21,515 nucleotides of DNA from a virus. This document shows positions 6,111-19,671 of this stretch, piece by piece (within the stretch, counting starts at the first letter, position 1; each line of letters opens with the position of its first letter). Position numbers and translations under genes: made by a program. The DNA lies in the IMG/VR virus record IMGVR_UViG_3300032177_000080, positions 1-21,515 of that record. One strand, written 5' to 3'. The notes under the pieces are model-generated. The model searched no databases. It saw only the letters and a program-made list of their open reading frames with translations, and had not been told where the DNA came from.

Positions 6111-6281
6111 ATAACAAAACCAAACTTCTTCTTTCCTGTCTTTTACAAAGGCAACCCTCATACTTTTCGGAGTAAGTGGAAAGGTCAATTTGATTGGATG
6201 TCCAACTTCAACGTCATCATTAAAGAAGGTTTTATCTTCTGTTTTTAGGTCTTTTCTGTCTTCACCAATAATGACTCTCAT
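6087..6281 (-). CDS. 64-aa protein coupled to DUF5131 gene
   Basis: ATG at 6281 overlaps the stop of the upstream DUF5131 gene as ATGA, with AGGGAG upstream. The 64-aa product is soluble and charged and may be a small beta-rich domain (MRVIIGEDRK, DVEVGHPIKLTF). It is not recognised. It is the last gene of the leftward operon and runs 24 bases into the convergent plus-strand gene. No clear terminator was seen at this junction. Confidence 0.6.
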   Translation of the reverse strand: MRVIIGEDRKDLKTEDKTFFNDDVEVGHPIKLTFPLTPKSMRVAFVKDRKEEVWFCYLKHEPHI

Positions 6282-7006
6282 GGTATCTCCCTAACCCTAA
6301 TATTTTCGTCAGACCATTCATTGGGATTTCTTGATATTCTTCCCGCTACTTCTATCTGTTTTACAAAGCAAGGGATATTGGCATATCCACATTGGTTAAC
6401 GATGGATCTTATCCATTCGATTTTCGCCGGTCTTCTTCCTGGCCCTGATTCTGCACCTACCACAATCCAGTTTAGATGTGGCGAATAAGGATCAAGATGT
6501 TTCAAAATATCCAAATCTCCAAGTAATGGCTCCAGGCTCAGCCATTTAAATGCCCCCGGTATTTTAAATAAATTTTCAATCTTCCAAAGTTCATCCGAAC
6601 TACAGACAGTGACACCGAGTCGAAGGTTTTTGAAATTGTCAAGATTCCAATTTGAAAGAATATTTTTCATTCGTTCAGGTCTTTTTGTAAGTAAGAAAAA
6701 AGTATGCCAATAGGCATGATGAACAGTATCCATAACTGATCCAATCCAAAATTTATCAACATCTGGATGAAACATATCCCCCATATCGCCAACGAATATC
6801 CGTTTGGGTTTTCTCCATTTCAAAGGATCATTCAATCGTTCGGGATGAAAAGTTACCCTGAATGGATCATCGATGGGATACCCGTCATATCTACCCTTGA
6901 AACGATAGGCCATTCGTTTGGCCCAGCAATTGTCACAGCCGGGGCTACAAGGAGAGCAACCGGTTACGGGGTTCCACGATACATCCCAGTATTTTCCGTC
7001 TTTCAT
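6278..7006 (-). CDS. DUF5131 (phage Gp37/Gp68 family) iron-sulphur protein
   Basis: A 242-aa protein beginning with WNPVTGC and a Cys cluster at residues 17, 20, 24 and 27 (CSPC-SPGC-DNC), followed by WAKRMA. These, with the later FVGDMGDMFHPDV, LLTKRPERM, LGVTV, WLSLEPLLG and VVGAESGPGRRPA blocks, are the standard signature of the Gp37/Gp68 (DUF5131) family. The family resembles a radical-SAM-like TIM barrel with a Cys-bound Fe-S cluster. It is frequent in phages and mobile elements, and its reaction is not established. The start ATG is joined to the previous stop as TAATG and the end is joined to the next gene as ATGA, so it is coupled on both sides. Length is typical. Confidence 0.92.
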   Translation of the reverse strand: MKDGKYWDVSWNPVTGCSPCSPGCDNCWAKRMAYRFKGRYDGYPIDDPFRVTFHPERLNDPLKWRKPKRIFVGDMGDMFHPDVDKFWIGSVMDTVHHAYWHTFFLLTKRPERMKNILSNWNLDNFKNLRLGVTVCSSDELWKIENLFKIPGAFKWLSLEPLLGDLDILKHLDPYSPHLNWIVVGAESGPGRRPAKIEWIRSIVNQCGYANIPCFVKQIEVAGRISRNPNEWSDENIRVREIP

Positions 7007-11375: not shown

Positions 11376-11582
11376 TTTTTCCCTTTAGAAAAATTTCCCT
11401 ATTGGGTTTCACGGGTGATCTTGACCCTTTAGGCAGGTTGTCGCAAGAGTAGTTCAATGCCATCTTGTTATCGAGCAAGGCCCCTCCACCCAATAGAGAG
11501 ATTTAGTATTTCAGAAGAATGGTTGATAGTTTTCATATTGATCATTATACAGAAAGCGAGATCATATTGGTCATCCCGGTTA

Positions 11583-11772: not shown

Positions 11773-11816
11773 TTGACAAGTTTCCTATTGCTTTATGATC
11801 TCGCTTTCTGTATAAT
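11773..11816 (+). promoter_or_regulatory. Weak outward promoter candidate across the repeat boundary
   Basis: TTGACA at 11773-11778 lies inside the spacer of the inverted repeat. TATGAT at 11794-11799 (15-bp spacing, short) and TATAAT at 11811-11816 (17 bp after TTGCTT at 11788-11793) lie in the right arm. As drawn it would read rightward, antisense to the RHH gene. After inversion the same elements would read leftward toward the replication genes, since both arms carry the -10-like sequences. Spacing and -35 quality are poor. Confidence 0.3.
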
Positions 11817-11982
11817 GATCAATATGAAAACTATCAACCATTCTTCTGAAGTGCAATCCTTGGGCTACCAGATGGATAAGGGCTTGGTTAAAGGTGATTC
11901 CGTTTTTCTTGGCATATTCGACCACCGCTTCCTGCATCCCAATGGGAAGCCGTTGATACTTACCCTTTCCCGTTTTATCCAT
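11785..11982 (-). CDS. Ribbon-helix-helix (Arc/ParD-like) DNA-binding protein
   Basis: A 65-aa protein starting at ATG 11982 with GAGGG upstream. Residues 8-45 fit an RHH fold: a short strand KYQRLPIG, helix MQEAVVEYAKKNG and helix TFNQALIHLVAQGL. Proteins of this size and fold bind DNA as dimers and usually repress their own promoter. It is the first gene behind a good leftward promoter (TTGACT/TATAAT, 12008-12035) and faces a divergent HTH gene. This arrangement resembles the early control region of temperate phages (Arc/Cro-like role), which is inferred. The last 21 codons lie mostly in the right arm of the 57-bp inverted repeat, and the C-terminal tail from residue 45 is outside the fold. 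Confidence 0.75.
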   Translation of the reverse strand: MDKTGKGKYQRLPIGMQEAVVEYAKKNGITFNQALIHLVAQGLHFRRMVDSFHIDHYTESEIIKQ

Positions 11983-13220: not shown

Positions 13221-13447
13221 TGCGGACTGGACATCATCTCAGTCAGACGGATTTGGCCAAAAGATTGCAAATCAGTCCAAATTATCTTTACATGATTGAA
13301 GCTGGCATAAGGTTGCCTTCGATATCCGTGCTTCAACGGTTTAGCGTTGCCTTCGAAATGAATTTGCAGTTTCTTAAACAATACTACCTGAACGATTATT
13401 TAACCCAAGTCGAGATAAAAATCAAAAGAAAATTAGAGATCACTTAA
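13169..13447 (+). CDS. Third HTH-XRE regulator
   Basis: A 92-aa protein starting at ATG 13169 inside the end of the previous gene. HTH-XRE domain at about residues 12-66: LPRLIRMMRTGHHLSQTDLAKRL, QISPNYLYMIEAGIRLPSISVLQRFS. A short helical, basic tail follows. A start at 13217 is possible but would remove the first helix. The ribosome-binding site is poor, so it may depend on coupling to the gene before it. It ends 8 bases into the convergent integrase gene. It may regulate the integrase or the lysogeny switch, by position only. Confidence 0.75.
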   Translation: MEKFSLRSSRLPRLIRMMRTGHHLSQTDLAKRLQISPNYLYMIEAGIRLPSISVLQRFSVAFEMNLQFLKQYYLNDYLTQVEIKIKRKLEIT

Positions 13448-14294
13448 TAATCATCTGGTCAAGGGTCTTCTCTGCCTCCCTCTGGCCATCCCTGTCTATA
13501 CCCTTCATGTAGTGGTCATAGATGGTTTTGGTTGAATTACCGGCCATCTCTGCAACCATGGCTGGATCAAGTTTTAACGATCTAATCATTCTACCTATGA
13601 TGGTATGACGGAATGTATGGGACCCCCTGCCTTTTGGATCAACACCTAATCGCTCAAAGATCTGCAAAATACGACGGAATGCAGTCCTTTTTGAAATTCC
13701 AAGAATCGTCCCGCTTACCTTGCAATATCCCTCGATGTCGGATTTGATTACCTCTGGTATAGAGAGTATGCGGGTCTCTCTATTCTTGCTTTGTTTGATG
13801 GTAATCGTGTTCGATATGAAGTCTATATCTGAGGGCTGGAGTTTGATTAACTCCCCTATTCTCATGGGTCGAGTCATGAGGAGATAAAAGATAACCTTAT
13901 CAATCCCTTCAAGTTTGTGGGCCTTCTTCATCATAGAAGCGATTTCAGATTTGGATAAATCCTTCTGTGGAGCCCTTGGAATATCGGCTGGTCCCTTGTA
14001 CGGTATTGGACCAATGCTCGAAATTGTACCCCTTTGATAGAGAAAGTTCAAAAATACACTAATAAAAATCTTGTGTGTCTTTTTGGACGAGGTTCTAATT
14101 TCTAACTGGTTCAGATAGGAAATTACGTCATCCCGTGTGACTTCTCCGATATCCGTCCTTCCCATCTTTTGCTCGTATTCAAGGAATCTTGATAGGACCG
14201 ATCTCATATTCGATAGTGTGTTGGCGGTGGGATGTCGTTCGGCAATATAGGATTCGAAAAAGGCTTCCAAGATACCATTAAGTTTTGTTTCCAT
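13440..14294 (-). CDS. int: Tyrosine recombinase / phage integrase
   Basis: A 284-aa protein starting at ATG 14294, with AGGAGG seven bases upstream. The N-terminal ~105 residues are a SAM-like core-binding domain (AFFESYIAERHPTANTLSNM). The catalytic domain has R145 (MRIGEL), K170 (QSKNRETR), H226 and R229 (SHTFRHT) and the nucleophile Y262 (YDHYMKG). The residue usually His or Trp before the nucleophile is N253 in AGNST. Such enzymes integrate and excise temperate phage DNA at att sites. It lies beside the HTH regulators as in many temperate phages. No att core could be identified by eye. It converges on the third HTH gene with an 8-base overlap. Confidence 0.93.
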   Translation of the reverse strand: METKLNGILEAFFESYIAERHPTANTLSNMRSVLSRFLEYEQKMGRTDIGEVTRDDVISYLNQLEIRTSSKKTHKIFISVFLNFLYQRGTISSIGPIPYKGPADIPRAPQKDLSKSEIASMMKKAHKLEGIDKVIFYLLMTRPMRIGELIKLQPSDIDFISNTITIKQSKNRETRILSIPEVIKSDIEGYCKVSGTILGISKRTAFRRILQIFERLGVDPKGRGSHTFRHTIIGRMIRSLKLDPAMVAEMAGNSTKTIYDHYMKGIDRDGQREAEKTLDQMIIK

Positions 14295-14349
14295 AGGTTT
14301 TCCTCCTCGCTGATCTTACCTTGATGCAATGGAGTCCTTCGATTATCAT
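14278..14349 (-). CDS. Possible 23-aa leader peptide before integrase
   Basis: ATG 14349 overlaps the stop of the upstream 240-aa gene (ATGA) and is preceded by GAGGAGG at a good spacing. The frame runs 23 codons, across the integrase start in another frame, to TAA at 14278-14280. The peptide is basic (MIIEGLHCIKVRSARRK). It might couple integrase translation to the upstream gene. The ribosome-binding site is also the natural codons for EEVEP of the upstream protein, so this may be chance. Confidence 0.25.
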   Translation of the reverse strand: MIIEGLHCIKVRSARRKTYGNKT

Positions 14350-15068
14350 GGCTCTACCTCCTCGAGCATTGTCCTCAGAACCGTTCTTAGACGGAGACGG
14401 TCATCATGGTTTAATGGAACCAAATCGAAGACTTGAAGGCTTTCTATTAGCTCGTCAAGGTTCCCCTTTGTCTTCTTCGGTTGCTTTACGGACGGTGGGA
14501 ACAGAAAAGTTCTGGCCTCTCGGGTCGTCATAGGAATGATCTCTATAATGGTATCAGGAGTTAGGTCTTTGATCCTATTGCAGAGTAGGGTTTTGTGTGT
14601 GCCTAGCTCGTTCCAAAATTCGATGAGCAATGGGTTGTTGTAAGCCTTGATTAATCGCATTGCATATGCGTAGTCATAGTAGACGGTTCGTTCCAAATAC
14701 ATCTTGAATTCCCTTTTCTTTTTTCTAAAGAATGTGTCATAGGTCTGGACGAGAAGTTTTGCAAGAGAAAGACTTTCTCGTGTGTCATTGGAGATCAAGA
14801 AACGAAGTTGAAGCGTAGCGACCTCAATGGAGAAAGTGACATCGGTGTCACTTTCTGGTTGGGGTGGTTGGGCCTCAATGATCTTTGCCTGACGTTTTCC
14901 ATTACCATGAGCTTCGAGGCATTCATGGTATGAGTCATGGGAGCATAGGAGTAGGTTCCCTAAAACACAGAGTTTCTTTGAACTCGGATCATGGAGACAC
15001 TTCTCGACATATCCAGAGAATTCGGGTCTGGGTTCTACGTCTAAGTATGGGTTAGGTGCGGTTTTCAT
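14346..15068 (-). CDS. Unknown 240-aa protein between integrase and MTase-helicase
   Basis: It starts at ATG 15068 with AAAGGAGG nine bases upstream, formed by the last codons and stop of the methyltransferase-helicase gene, so the two are probably coupled. The N-terminal 60 residues contain four Cys (24, 34, 42, 50) and three His, arranged loosely enough that zinc binding is uncertain. Residues about 80-190 are helical, with SLAKLLVQTYDTFFRKKKREF and YLERTVYYDYAYAMRLI. The C-terminus is acidic. No known domain is recognised. Because it is tightly linked to the fusion enzyme it may be its partner or regulator, which is inference only. Confidence 0.65.
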   Translation of the reverse strand: MKTAPNPYLDVEPRPEFSGYVEKCLHDPSSKKLCVLGNLLLCSHDSYHECLEAHGNGKRQAKIIEAQPPQPESDTDVTFSIEVATLQLRFLISNDTRESLSLAKLLVQTYDTFFRKKKREFKMYLERTVYYDYAYAMRLIKAYNNPLLIEFWNELGTHKTLLCNRIKDLTPDTIIEIIPMTTREARTFLFPPSVKQPKKTKGNLDELIESLQVFDLVPLNHDDRLRLRTVLRTMLEEVEP

Positions 15069-15075
15069 ATGGATT

Positions 15076-18000
15076 TTACCTCCTTTCTACGGTCTGTATA
15101 GTCTCTTGGCAAAAAAATAGTTCCATCTGCTTCTCGTCTTTTTTGGCTTCATGATTATGGTTTCGATTAACTTCATGATATAGGGTATTCCACTTTCCGT
15201 TGGACTCTGTTTTGACTACAACTGGGCTCAATTTAGGCTCCGGTTCGGTTATTGCCGCTTCCCCTTTCTCGTACTCAAATTCAACGGGGTCTTCTTCCTT
15301 CCCTGTCATTGCCTTTGCGATTGCAAGATAATCCCCTCCTGCCCTCAATACATTGGCCGTTCTCCCGAACCTTACCCGTCCGTCAATGGCATTGGAGATA
15401 GCTCGCTTCTTTTGCGTGATAAGATTATACATTTTAAAATCAATGTTTTGTTCTTCTGGTGTCCAATCGAGCAAAAGATAATAACAGGTTACGGGTTTCT
15501 CCTGGCCTGTCCTGTGTGCTCTGTCCTCGGCTTGGTCTGTACTTTCCGGTGAATATTCGACATCGGTAAAGATAACATGGTTGGCAGCATTGATCGTGAA
15601 TCCTCGGTTTAGGACGTTCAGGCCTGCCACTATTGCGGTGATGTTGGGGTCCTCCTGAAATCTTTTGATATTTTTGAATCGGTCTTTGGTCTGCATGGTA
15701 GAGGGTACAAAAATATGATTAATCCCCCTATTCTCAAACGATTTGTGCAGGGTCGCTTGCATATCTCTGAGTGCTGAGTAAACCAGAACCTTTTCCCCTT
15801 TGGCCCTGGCCTCTTCAACGATCTCAATAGCCTTTCTGACCTTAACATTTGCCTCTGGTGCGATTCTCGGAATGGTGGCGGCGAATCTCATAGACCATAG
15901 GGCTTTGCTGATTACTCCCATGTTTACCTCTGTTTCTGGTTTCCTTAACTCTCTGTCGATCATTTCTTCTGCTTTCTCGACCGCGATCCCGTATTCGGTT
16001 ACGTGTCCCGGGTCCGGCGGAAGTGCAAGTATTCTTCTGTGTTTCTCTGGGAGTTTAATCATTTCGTCTTTCAATCTTCGGATGGTAAAGGACGAAAGAA
16101 TTTTCCAAAACCTGTTAAGATTTGACACCTCTGGTAATTCCTTCTTTCTCCCCTTGTGAAGCGTGGTTTCAAATTCAATGTCCTTAAATTTGAATGTCGA
16201 AAACTCCTCGGCAAAAATCTTACTCCCTCTCCTGTCAAATCGGTAAGGGAATAGCGGGTTATTGTGTCTGGTGATGTATCCGATGTTGAAGAATGTGTCG
16301 GTGATATATCCCTTCATTAAAGTACCTGTCAATTCAAGTCTTGATTTGGCATGGATGGAGCGGACGGCCTGACCTCGGAATGAGGTTTTACTTTTTGCCT
16401 GCTGGACCTCATCAATGATGACAGATCGAAACAGTTTTTTGATACGTTTATATGCGGGATACTGCTTAATCGACTCTTTCGATGAATACTTATAAGCGGA
16501 ATACCCACACTTCGTACAGTTTTCACCTGTCCACTCTTCCTTAACCTTGCATTTTGGACATACTTTTTGAGTCGAGGCATATTCGGTCGAACATCCCTGA
16601 CAGACCCGGCTGGTGTTGCCGTGTACCTCATGTTTAATATTTCCATCCTGGTCATACTTGATGCAGCTCCAGGGATCATAAACTCTGCCTGTATCAAGGG
16701 AAAGAAATTCATATGATGTGATGTAAAAGTTCGTTCCTTCCCGTGTATCCCCTCGTTTGATGGATTGCTGTAAGAGGTCAATGGCATGGTGGGTTGTTAG
16801 TCTGACCGTTCTAAATCCAAACTTGTTGGCCTCGTTAATCCAGTTATCCACCAATGAGGACTGACAAATCACAAGGACCCGCTTGACATTGCGGATCGCA
16901 TTAAAGACAAATGAACAGAGCGTCTTTCCCCCACCCATATCGTAGCCTATGTATGCGCTTTTTGTTTTAGTAAGGACTCGGGCCAAATCCTCGGCTTGGT
17001 AGTCAAAATCTCCTGATAAGGCTGGATATTTCTTGATGATTTTATCTTTCCATTGCTTGACCAGTTCGGGTTTTTCTTCTGAAATGTCTCTCACTTCCGG
17101 TAAATGAAATGCCTCAAGGAATAGAGCTACTTCTAAGGGTTCGGGTTCCCTAAAGGCCCGATTCCCTAATTCTGTTTCTGCTTCGATTGATAAAAATCCC
17201 CGATCGATGGACGTTGTGATAGTTTTCTGTTGATTGCCTTCCCCTATGACATTTATTCCCGTGACCTCTGATTGTCTAACCCATGAGGGCCTGATTAGAT
17301 ACTGCTTCCCTTTTTTAAAGAGCAAAAACTGTTTTCCATTCTTCCCATTCTTTCCATTGTCCCGGTGATCCTGTCTATACTTCCCCTCCTCTACCTCATC
17401 ATAGACGTCTGCCCTGGCGATGTATTCTCTTTCGTCGAAATAAGCCAAAAGCTGATGATCCTTTGGCGGATAGAGCGGGATCGAGAGCAACTTAAACTTC
17501 TCCTTTAGGACCTCGATTTTCTTACGTGTAGCGTCACTGATTGTCAAGTCAAAACCTAATTGCTTCAGTACCTGCCCTGCCCTGTCAACTCCCCTCTTAC
17601 AGAGTGCGGGACTTTCAAGGTAGGCTTCGGTTAGTCCGGTGGGTCTACCAACTACCGGATTATAGAAGTCCAGAGTATCATTGTAAAAATCCATCATGGC
17701 AAGTGCGGTCGGGTCTCCCCTCACTCCCCTTGCGGTAATTTCCACATTATTTATGGTGTTTATTTCAACGAGGTTGTCGAGGTAGGGAACATCGATTTCT
17801 GAATCTGAGAGGGCAAATCTGTCAAATCCTTCTCCTTTAACTGTAGACCAAGCATCTAATATCTTCTTCTCAAGAAGCGGGTCATTGGCGTCAATCTCAA
17901 TTTCTCTGAATCCTGATGAACAGTGATGGTCATAACGGTTCACCCTGCAAACCACTAAATCGACCTGGACATCGATTTTATATTCATCCTTAAATAGTCC

Positions 18001-18618
18001 ATTAATGGTGACTCTGAAGAGGACTTTAAAGTTCTTATAAAGGTATTGCCTTAGACCGGCATCTTTTGTGTTAGTAAAAGACGATGTTGGAATAATGGCG
18101 AAGAGATAGCCGTGATAGTTTAACGCTGCTTTACAGATTTGGATCGTTGCATTTTGGCTCTCAATGTTCTTAGCATAGGATAAACCGTCCTCAAATTCAA
18201 AGTCGGTCTCTTCCTGGTTCCAGAGAATCCCAAAGGGCGGGTTGGTGACGGCTATATCAAAATCTCCTTTTAGGTGTTTGGCATAGTCAAGGATACTGCC
18301 TGTTCTTACAGATTCACCTCCTAACAACTGTTTTGCCTTCGATGATATCTCTTTATCCAGTTCGATCCCTAAAACCTTGGCTCCTTGCCTCTTAAATGGA
18401 TAGAGAAGTCTTCCGGTTCCACAAGTCGGGTCAAGGACTTTTAACTTTTTTATGAAATCATTGCTTGGTAGGCAATTAACCACCATAGCGAATAAAACAT
18501 TCGCCAGTTTCATGGGAGTCAGATATCCTGCGTGTTTACTTTTGGACCACAAGCGGAAATTTAAATCCTTATTGGCTTCCCGTCCAGAGTCGTCAAGTAT
18601 GGTCTCGGGTTCGGTCAT
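15076..18618 (-). CDS. N6-adenine DNA methyltransferase / SNF2 helicase fusion
   Basis: A 1180-aa protein starting at ATG 18618. Residues ~20-230 are an adenine-specific methyltransferase: LTPMKLAN (33-40), SAM-binding motif VLDPTCGTGR (61-70), and catalytic NPPFG (126-130). Residues ~540-1050 are an SNF2-type helicase: Walker A MGGGKT (561-566), LVICQSSLVDNW, Walker B DEVQ (736-739), TGTLMKG, and the C-lobe QAEDRAHRTGQ (1029-1039). A zinc ribbon with Cys pairs 673/676, 687/690 and 701/704 is inserted between motifs Ia and II. No nuclease motif was seen. Methylase-helicase fusions occur in phages (P1 DarB is one, larger), where they protect phage DNA from restriction. Here the role may be anti-restriction, DNA modification or replication. 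It is by far the largest gene and looks intact. Confidence 0.9.
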   Translation of the reverse strand: MTEPETILDDSGREANKDLNFRLWSKSKHAGYLTPMKLANVLFAMVVNCLPSNDFIKKLKVLDPTCGTGRLLYPFKRQGAKVLGIELDKEISSKAKQLLGGESVRTGSILDYAKHLKGDFDIAVTNPPFGILWNQEETDFEFEDGLSYAKNIESQNATIQICKAALNYHGYLFAIIPTSSFTNTKDAGLRQYLYKNFKVLFRVTINGLFKDEYKIDVQVDLVVCRVNRYDHHCSSGFREIEIDANDPLLEKKILDAWSTVKGEGFDRFALSDSEIDVPYLDNLVEINTINNVEITARGVRGDPTALAMMDFYNDTLDFYNPVVGRPTGLTEAYLESPALCKRGVDRAGQVLKQLGFDLTISDATRKKIEVLKEKFKLLSIPLYPPKDHQLLAYFDEREYIARADVYDEVEEGKYRQDHRDNGKNGKNGKQFLLFKKGKQYLIRPSWVRQSEVTGINVIGEGNQQKTITTSIDRGFLSIEAETELGNRAFREPEPLEVALFLEAFHLPEVRDISEEKPELVKQWKDKIIKKYPALSGDFDYQAEDLARVLTKTKSAYIGYDMGGGKTLCSFVFNAIRNVKRVLVICQSSLVDNWINEANKFGFRTVRLTTHHAIDLLQQSIKRGDTREGTNFYITSYEFLSLDTGRVYDPWSCIKYDQDGNIKHEVHGNTSRVCQGCSTEYASTQKVCPKCKVKEEWTGENCTKCGYSAYKYSSKESIKQYPAYKRIKKLFRSVIIDEVQQAKSKTSFRGQAVRSIHAKSRLELTGTLMKGYITDTFFNIGYITRHNNPLFPYRFDRRGSKIFAEEFSTFKFKDIEFETTLHKGRKKELPEVSNLNRFWKILSSFTIRRLKDEMIKLPEKHRRILALPPDPGHVTEYGIAVEKAEEMIDRELRKPETEVNMGVISKALWSMRFAATIPRIAPEANVKVRKAIEIVEEARAKGEKVLVYSALRDMQATLHKSFENRGINHIFVPSTMQTKDRFKNIKRFQEDPNITAIVAGLNVLNRGFTINAANHVIFTDVEYSPESTDQAEDRAHRTGQEKPVTCYYLLLDWTPEEQNIDFKMYNLITQKKRAISNAIDGRVRFGRTANVLRAGGDYLAIAKAMTGKEEDPVEFEYEKGEAAITEPEPKLSPVVVKTESNGKWNTLYHEVNRNHNHEAKKDEKQMELFFCQETIQTVERR

Positions 18619-18622
18619 TGTC

Positions 18623-18877
18623 CTATCCCTCCATTATCTTCTGAATCCCTAATCTGTCATAGACTGTGCTAACCTCTTCATCATTCATCTGGTCAATCAG
18701 TCTGAGAAAGGCCAGAAAGTGACTGCTGTAAATCCTGTAAAATTCAATTACAACATGACGCTGGTCCATCTCTCCCGCAAGGTAGGCCTGCTTAATCTCG
18801 GCCTGTCTTTCCTGGATGGTTAAGACTGGTTCTTCCCTGGCTTGACAGGGTTCACTCTTTGAGCAAGGTCTAAACAT
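18623..18877 (-). CDS. 84-aa helical protein, unknown
   Basis: ATG 18877 (MFRPCSKSEPCQ) is preferred over an upstream in-frame start at 19003, because GGGAG is placed before it and it overlaps the previous stop by 8 bases. The product has two N-terminal Cys and then a helical, charged body (IQERQAEIKQAYLAGEMDQ, FYRIYSSHFLAFLRLIDQ). Not recognised. It ends 4 bases before the start of the methyltransferase-helicase, so it is cotranscribed and perhaps coupled with it. Confidence 0.6.
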   Translation of the reverse strand: MFRPCSKSEPCQAREEPVLTIQERQAEIKQAYLAGEMDQRHVVIEFYRIYSSHFLAFLRLIDQMNDEEVSTVYDRLGIQKIMEG

Positions 18878-19415
18878 GGTCTTGTTCTCCCTTCTCTTTA
18901 ATTCCAAACATTTCCCCTGCCCTCTTCCTGTCCATTTTCCACTGGTCAAATTCGACCTGAATAGCCGGTACTCCTGAGTTACCTTGATCTTGGACGGTTT
19001 CAAAGTAATATGGTTTTTCCTTCATCAACCTACAGGTTAACTTCGCCAGGGCTTCATCAGACACCTTTAGCCGATAGATTTGGCGTATCCGGTCAAGAGC
19101 CACATAGAGACTGGCTTTCTCTGTCATACCCATAAAGATGAGCTTTTTGTAAATACCTTCCTTAACCCCGTCATAGTCGAAAAATTTAGGGTTGTAGGCT
19201 GTGAATATCCAGGGCGGATCTGCTTTGATTTTTGTCTTGATGAGAGCCCAGGAGTCGGCGGGTAGGTCTTCGGGGTGGAGCGGGGTTTTACCGTAGACTT
19301 GAATGAAAGCGAAGTCGGATCGGTATCGCTGGCCCTCCTGGTATCCCCTGACAAGGAAATAGTCTTTCCCGTTTATGGTGATGTAGGTTTTATCGCGGTG
19401 TGTGAAGGTTTGCAT
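18870..19415 (-). CDS. 181-aa hypothetical phage protein
   Basis: ATG 19415 (MQTFTHRDKTYITINGKDYF) is chosen over an in-frame TTG at 19424; AAGGAG lies 12 bases before the ATG, with a closer GGGAG. The N-terminal half looks beta-rich, with many aromatic residues (GKDYFLVRGY, SDFAFIQVYGKTPL, PPWIFTAYNPKFFDYDG). The C-terminal half is helical and charged, with two Cys-free repeats of K/E. No domain recognised. It belongs to the chain of coupled leftward genes feeding into the methyltransferase-helicase. Confidence 0.6.
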   Translation of the reverse strand: MQTFTHRDKTYITINGKDYFLVRGYQEGQRYRSDFAFIQVYGKTPLHPEDLPADSWALIKTKIKADPPWIFTAYNPKFFDYDGVKEGIYKKLIFMGMTEKASLYVALDRIRQIYRLKVSDEALAKLTCRLMKEKPYYFETVQDQGNSGVPAIQVEFDQWKMDRKRAGEMFGIKEKGEQDHV

Positions 19416-19431
19416 AACTCCCAATTTCTCC

Positions 19432-19671
19432 TTAAAACTGTTTAAAGAAATGGTTTACAAAATCCTCTGATATATCGGCTTTATAAGGGCAGGTATTATA
19501 TATTTGCTCTACCTTCCCCGTTGGGTATGTCTCTATTGTGGTGATGTCGTCATCTTCCCCTCCGAAATCAGATGCATCAAAGTCTAGCACTAAGATTTCA
19601 ACAGGTTGATCACTTGTAATTCCTTGAATGAGTCCTCCTTCTAAGGTGATTACTATTCTTGGTTTTTCCAT
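19432..19671 (-). CDS. Conserved small phage-type protein (VEGGLIQ family)
   Basis: A 79-aa protein with AGGAGG 11 bases upstream of ATG 19671. The start PRIVITLEGGLIQGITSDQPVEILVLDFD resembles, from memory, a common uncharacterised phage and plasmid protein with a V/I-rich GG-x-V/I-Q motif followed by V-x-V-D-D acidic residues. The middle has a cluster of acidic residues (FDASDFGGEDDD). It probably has a small beta-hairpin fold. Function unknown. The sequence match is to a pattern, not to a database entry. Confidence 0.65.
   Translation of the reverse strand: MEKPRIVITLEGGLIQGITSDQPVEILVLDFDASDFGGEDDDITTIETYPTGKVEQIYNTCPYKADISEDFVNHFFKQF

Follow-up and report, generated by a model that had tools for sequence, protein, structure and literature searches.

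The virus record IMGVR_UViG_3300032177_000080, a stretch of 21,515 bases that was analyzed at its full length and is referred to here as the window, carries on its minus strand a single open frame with an ATG start whose 1180-residue product joins an adenine methyltransferase to an SNF2-type helicase (Table 1). The first-pass annotation of this DNA, made from the sequence alone, had recognized in this one chain the adenine methyltransferase motifs DPTCGTG and NPPFG, a full set of SNF2 motifs including RAHRTGQ, and a six-cysteine ribbon inserted inside the helicase, and all of these could be placed. The methylase region scored above the Pfam cut-offs for Eco57I (7.1e-07) and N6_Mtase (9.5e-07), as did the helicase region for Helicase_C (9.5e-16) and SNF2-rel_dom (3.4e-13), and the fusion protein matched PHROG 62, annotated as 'DNA helicase', at 4.7e-59. 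The six cysteines (residues 673, 676, 687, 690, 701 and 704) lie between an Ib-like motif, ITSYE, and motif II of the helicase; the Pfam double-zinc-ribbon profiles gave weak matches to the fusion protein (0.0088 and 0.03). Only ~25 residues precede the methylase, and the profile matches are to the methylase, SNF2 and weak zinc-ribbon domains alone. As to the lack of a nuclease motif, also remarked on in the first-pass annotation, no nuclease family was matched among the Pfam and NCBIfam profiles.

Table 1. Positions in the window of the methyltransferase-SNF2 fusion gene, its domains and motifs, and its neighboring genes
Feature	Residues	Window positions	Strand	Basis or remark
Methyltransferase-SNF2 fusion, 1180 aa		15076..18618	-	Open frame, Pfam, PHROG, alignment
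Gamma-class adenine methyltransferase domain	~25-230	17929..18546	-	Pfam Eco57I and N6_Mtase; AlphaFold2 model
DPTCGTG	63-69	18412-18432	-	
NPPFG	126-130	18229-18243	-	
Middle region	~231-490	17149..17928	-	Conserved in alignment; dN/dS 0.08 in one pair
SNF2 motor	~537-1090	15349..17010	-	Pfam SNF2-rel_dom and Helicase_C; motifs placed
P-loop, GYDMGGGKT	558-566	16921-16947	-	
Six-Cys zinc-ribbon-like insert (putative zinc binding)	673-704	16507..16602	-	Cys invariant, 9 of 9 rows
Motif II, DEVQ	736-739	16402-16413	-	
LTGTLMKG	763-770	16309-16332	-	
RAHRTGQ	1033-1039	15502-15522	-	
C-terminal sliding-clamp-binding-like motif, QMELF	1164-1168	15115..15129	-	12 residues before end
84-aa protein directly upstream		18623..18877	-	Only in near-identical contigs L001 and L002
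240-aa protein		14346..15068	-	Homologs in other long phage contigs, non-adjacent
184-aa upstream gene		18870..19424	-	Most widely conserved neighbor
Tyrosine integrase, downstream		13440..14294	-	Pfam Phage_integrase 1.4e-12

An AlphaFold2 model of residues 1–537 was of moderate quality (mean predicted local distance difference test score, or pLDDT, of 68.4), and its methylase resembled HsdM, M.BseCI and BsaXI (Z-scores of 15–17, ~3.6–4.5 Å, ~208–249 residues), the list of structure matches (VIA-align) spanning model residues 6–262 only. The methylase fold is common to the fusion and to the Type I HsdM and type ISP enzymes (EcoKI M and LlaBIII, Z-scores of 13.8–16.2); however, Type I and ISP enzymes carry an HsdR-type motor, whereas the fusion instead has an SNF2 motor and, as noted, matches no nuclease family in Pfam. 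The middle region that follows the methylase is possibly a target-recognition or linker region.

Relatives, conservation and selection

The queries used on viral contigs were a single protein, an alignment and four DNA patterns, and these searches returned nine contigs or subsets thereof, with 67–100% identity to the window protein; a wider alignment scan added one distant phage relative, L065 (35% identity). A first scan of bacterial genomes with one query gave no relatives, and a second returned eight stretches of which two were true relatives (42–47% identity), both in Thermoanaerobaculia metagenome-assembled genomes (MAGs). When the order of one of these MAGs was scanned a relative was present in 1 of 19 genomes, the starting genome only, and the middle region used alone as a query gave one phage match with an E-value of 0.2.

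The alignment comprised nine rows from eight distinct contigs (L014 and L024 are one contig, and L018 and L022 look nearly identical across their overlap). The six cysteines, GGGK, DE-x-Q, LTGTLMKG and the HR-x-GQ core were invariant in all nine rows, and DPTCG[TS]G and NPP[YF]G were present in each of the seven rows long enough to include them. As relatives at 67–73% and ~42% identity retain every motif, the open frame is not a chance one. Even the distant L065 retains NPPYG, the P-loop and DESQ, and has a Cys-rich insert with altered spacing. The catalytic motifs are kept in the alignment, and neither the loss of catalytic residues nor the clear orthology to a characterized restriction enzyme for which the first-pass annotation had allowed was seen. 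Both enzyme parts are under purifying selection: in the closest pair (L003 and L019) the ratio of nonsynonymous to synonymous substitution rates (dN/dS) was 0.12 for the methylase, 0.08 for the middle region and 0.04 for SNF2; synonymous sites were saturated in the comparison of the window with L003.

Relationship to P1 DarB and to two-gene plasmid dyads

Methylase-helicase dyads, in which an EcoKI/TaqI-type adenine methylase with NPP(Y/F) is combined with a C-terminal SWI2/SNF2 ATPase, have been described in phages and conjugative elements, with P1 DarB as their archetype (Iyer et al. 2017, PMC5512222). The fusion has both parts, i.e., a gamma-class methylase of this kind (by Pfam, by NPP(Y/F) in 7 of 7 rows and by its HsdM/BseCI-like fold) and a SWI2/SNF2 ATPase at its C terminus (by Pfam and alignment). 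On this comparison of domains we regard it as a temperate-phage form of the published dyad, the architecture itself being known. The N-terminal TP motif ahead of the methylase is T34-P35 in the window protein, T-S in L003, T-N in L024 and TP in the other four rows reaching it. Unlike the polyvalent proteins, which carry an N-terminal LPD36 and several unrelated domains, and unlike the dyads of Iyer et al., the fusion lacks both an LPD36-like extension at its N terminus and any further domains; conversely, it adds the internal six-Cys ribbon and, near its C terminus, the clamp-like motif. The main text of PMC5512222 contains none of the terms 'clamp', 'DnaN' and 'zinc ribbon'.

The first-pass annotation had offered P1 DarB as a possible larger relative of the fusion. 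DarB (2255 aa) does share its Pfam order of N6_Mtase/Eco57I, SNF2 and Helicase_C; however, it is twice the size, has NVPFG in place of the NPPFG of the fusion, and has no clamp-like end. BlastP matched the two at 3e-4 across 67 residues, and hhalign (probability 69.7, E-value of 4.2e-5) covered the methylase part only, so that full-length orthology was not found. With this weak similarity, with no N-terminal extension before the methylase, and with the plasmid dyads described below closer by profile, the notion of a compact DarB relative is only loosely right, and the comparison holds as a working analogy only.

The plasmid relatives have a two-gene form, with a DUF6094 (PF19587) methylase beside an SF2/SNF2 helicase, e.g., in Thermus pTTJL1802 and Thermoanaerobacterium pMU3262 and in plasmids of Brevibacillus (e.g., Brevibacillus marinus), Peribacillus and Virgibacillus. 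Profile comparison related the fusion to both partners, i.e., to a DUF6094 methylase (hhalign 96.3, 1.7e-9) and to a Malaciobacter helicase (99.1, 1.6e-18, 535 columns); PF19587 was absent among the 14 Pfam families matching the fusion at an E-value of 0.1 or less. Replication-gene linkage and, in several, similar C-terminal ends are further points of likeness, whereas the dyads consist of two genes rather than one and their helicases have ~22–26% identity to the fusion. Cys pairs occur at the same helicase position in Thermus, Alkalihalophilus, Sporosarcina, Malaciobacter and others, whereas Peribacillus and five other phage SNF2 helicases have none there; within this lineage the predicted zinc ribbon is nothing out of the ordinary.

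Plasmid helicases of the dyad kind adjoin ssb, dnaN, dnaX and delta'. Among 11 DUF6094 loci, eight chosen from 40 listed of 59 records, with those of pathogens set aside, and three found via the helicase, dnaN lay within 6 kb of DUF6094 in four and ssb was present in two more; an SF2 or SNF2 helicase was within the fetched stretch in five of the eight chosen loci. The helicase of one locus (L055) matched ResIII, with Helicase_C under the cut-off and no SNF2 profile. The literature searched here, which lacks most subscription papers, did not contain the word DUF6094.

One of the two MAG copies also has a mobile-element setting. In L047 (a chromosome contig of a Thermoanaerobaculia MAG, 38001–58000) the fusion adjoins relaxase-type, coupling-protein and weak ArdC-like genes, the last matching ArdcN at 0.0035, under the cut-off. 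A Mod-like methylase that bears an Mrr-like domain also borders this copy, as do a transposase-like gene and a large DEAD-box helicase.

A sliding-clamp-binding-like motif near the C terminus

Between phage and MAG proteins the tails could not be aligned, apart from a final Q-[LMF]-x-[LM]-F, which all 12 entries, representing 10 distinct contigs, carry as QMELF (the form in the window protein), QLTLF, QMTLF, QLSMF, QLSLF or QFTLF. The bacterial clamp-binding consensus is given as QL[S/D]LF (PMC3716654), and in B. subtilis the motif is QLSLF at the end of PolC and QMGLF in DnaE (PMC12309361). A conserved QL[S/D]LF-like peptide near the free end, as expected of a sliding-clamp client, was found in all 10 contigs first examined. 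When the strict pattern was applied to the last 20 residues of 297 distinct open reading frames (ORFs), nine matched, namely all five family members in the set and four of the 292 remaining ORFs, and three of these four sit in dyad neighborhoods; the control ORFs were the longest non-overlapping ones of at least 100 aa from the fetched loci, some of which are probably not genes. Shuffled tails matched the motif at 0.025–0.74%, and it was found in none of eight comparison proteins (P1 DarB, two DarB-like giants and five other phage SNF2 helicases). The distant phage protein L065, which was found after the pattern had been set, ends in a six-residue variant, QIEFDF, and such ends also occur in plasmid helicases (e.g., QLAFDF and QLMFDF).

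In two Bacillales plasmids (L034:6713–7621 and L050:5802–6854) the gene after the helicase has no Pfam match and encodes a protein ending in QLGLF or QTLLF, and the helicase itself is without the motif, as if a putative clamp tag were on a partner protein.

In the literature searched, from which most subscription papers are missing, we found no mention of the clamp-like end, of its being conserved in phage, MAG and some plasmid forms, or of the plasmid dnaN link, and likewise no clamp-linked methylase of this kind.

Proposed function and alternatives

Based on the intact motifs, the purifying selection, the HsdM/BseCI-type fold, the conserved tail motif, the linkage of the related plasmid dyads to dnaN and ssb, and the conjugation and ArdC-like setting of L047, we tentatively favor, with somewhat less than even confidence, the reading that the fusion is a clamp-tagged methylating translocase tethered to the host replisome, which would mark phage DNA during copying, probably against restriction. 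The temperate phage would make one chain consisting of an N6-adenine methyltransferase, a zinc-ribbon SNF2 double-strand DNA translocase and a flexible tail; the peptide at the end of the tail would bind the host beta sliding clamp and keep the enzyme at replication forks. There the SNF2 motor may carry the enzyme along the new duplex or push bound proteins aside, and the methylase would mark adenines such that phage DNA is modified as it is copied, after which host restriction enzymes would probably read it as self. The first-pass annotation had also raised a translocating methylase, and this stands as a prediction, both catalytic parts being intact, conserved and selected; methylation and translocation themselves are what we infer from them. 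A clamp encoded by the host would be needed, as no clamp gene was found in the four phage records searched, all of which are fragments.

That null result is also one of several points that weigh against a clamp tether. The motif is five residues long, its binding to the clamp is predicted, and in the window protein it is followed by another 12 residues instead of forming the terminus itself. The family in which it is conserved is not a set of independent cases, as it comprises a single phage clade, the two MAG copies and the distant phage L065, which fails the strict pattern. A related end was seen in 7 of 13 plasmid SF2/SNF2 helicases by a looser pattern over the last 14 residues that was defined after several tails had been viewed; six of the 13 lack even this, and the strict motif was present in the last 20 residues of just one. 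Finally, the DUF6094 loci were hand-picked, not random.

The alternative that survives best, which we nonetheless consider unlikely, is a stand-alone methylase-helicase dyad that would shield phage DNA against restriction without being tethered to a clamp, QxxLF being a chance or lineage feature. The shortness of the motif and the several plasmid relatives without it fit this explanation; however, the motif is kept across clades with otherwise unalignable tails and is rare in the control ORFs. Alternatively, the fusion may be a replication or recombination accessory whose SNF2 motor clears proteins or remodels forks, methylation being secondary or regulatory. This would suit the RuvC-like, Cas4/RecE-like and recombination-directionality-like genes in the phage region and the replication genes that adjoin the plasmid helicases, yet the methylase motifs are conserved and under selection and the L047 homolog lies near an ArdC-like gene, and we consider such a role distinctly unlikely.

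A prophage-borne anti-phage defense, like a reduced BREX, DISARM or Zorya, is suggested by PADLOC, in which the helicase half scored with Zorya ZorD and DpdE, the ZorD matches covering the helicase part, and the methylase half with MADS mad2. However, the NCBIfam ZorD score was 72.6 against a cut-off of 1500, and membership of this or a similar family was rejected with scores so far below the cut-offs. The comparison with DISARM and BREX components proposed in the first-pass annotation likewise came to nothing: PADLOC gave no confident match to a DISARM, BREX or Zorya partner gene among the 12 other proteins scanned of this 21.5-kb fragment, the 240-aa protein giving a weak match to PD-Lambda-4_B (0.0051), and a known defense system with partner genes was rejected on this basis. 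With no nuclease family matched in Pfam either, a defense role seems highly improbable. Similarly improbable is a DarB-like injected protein that would guard DNA entering the cell, in cis, against type I restriction. DarB, a virion protein packaged through an N-terminal capsid signal (PMC9024508) and required against EcoK and EcoB (PMC9024508, PMC11109961) by a mechanism termed undefined in a 2024 paper (PMC11109961), has the same Pfam domain order, whereas its similarity to the fusion is weak, it lacks a clamp-like end, and the fusion has no extension before the methylase and lies in an early/lysogeny neighborhood beside an integrase.

Returning to the clamp-tethered translocase, we would extend it, more tentatively still, to a widespread replication-coupled module of mobile elements, in which an adenine methylase paired with an SNF2 translocase that bears a zinc ribbon, clamp-tethered by a C-terminal peptide, may mark invading DNA as self at the fork; the two would form one chain in the phage lineage and a conjugative element, and be encoded elsewhere by adjacent DUF6094 and helicase genes, often beside plasmid dnaN. 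If our model is correct, the conserved clamp peptide would give a concrete and testable account of how a methylase cooperates with an SNF2 motor in mobile elements, with modification at replication and not in the virion, and the DUF6094 methylases and nearby plasmid dnaN genes would gain a shared role.

Neighboring genes and other observations

The genes on either side of the fusion, encoding the 84-aa and 240-aa proteins, had been proposed in the first-pass annotation to form one functional unit with it. This three-gene unit was rejected, as the 84-aa gene is not conserved beyond the two near-identical contigs and the homologs of the 240-aa gene, in the long contigs of L006 and L024, lie at least 2.4 kb upstream of the fusion. 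The 184-aa upstream gene, in contrast to these, recurs in L001, L002, L006, L024, L036 and L047 as well as the window (tblastn), and in L065 by profile comparison (hhalign 97.5, 8e-12); a model of its product (pLDDT of 83) gave no significant PDB match. The integrase is downstream on the same strand in 8 of the 8 phage contigs having downstream sequence (L001 ends within the fusion gene, and L003 and L019 hold only the integrase start), whereas none was seen next to L065 or either MAG copy. A recombinase-switched specificity gene was also considered and rejected, as the repeats of at least 18 nt in window positions 13300–19500 are short and imperfect and there is no duplicated recognition region. 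In L003 a serine resolvase-type recombinase gene (20–490; Pfam Resolvase 1.1e-21) lies just upstream of the fusion region.

Elsewhere in the window, a perfect 57-nt inverted repeat (11510–11566 and 11794–11850, with 227 nt between the arms) lies between immunity-like and replication-like genes and could act in regulation or form an invertible element; its orientation is unchanged in L002, a near-identical contig. Compared with the window at 18881, L001 has ~690 bp of extra small genes (1967–2659) just upstream of the 84-aa gene. On the minus strand, a 242-aa protein encoded at 6278–7006 matched the PADLOC candidates PDC-M41B (2e-58) and PDC-M30B (2e-56), and is presumably a phage Gp37/Gp68-like protein.

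Several genes of other contigs are interrupted by intein-like sequences. Among the relatives of the fusion, L022 (IMGVR_UViG_3300025837_000407) and L018 (IMGVR_UViG_3300008255_004423) have a mini-intein in helicase motif II (Pfam Intein_splicing 4.6e-9 and 2.1e-9, respectively), and a second intein, which contains a LAGLIDADG domain, splits the P-loop of the L022 helicase but not that of L018. In a near-identical phage record (G002; L026:3177–4514) a 445-aa gene holds an intein-like stretch (LAGLIDADG_3 0.0027, under the cut-off); judging by eye, the interrupted host gene resembles an HD/YfbR-type hydrolase. An SNF2 helicase of a 484-kb uncultured phage (L029, LR756508.1, 3474–6299) likewise has an intein-like stretch with LAGLIDADG after the GK of its P-loop.

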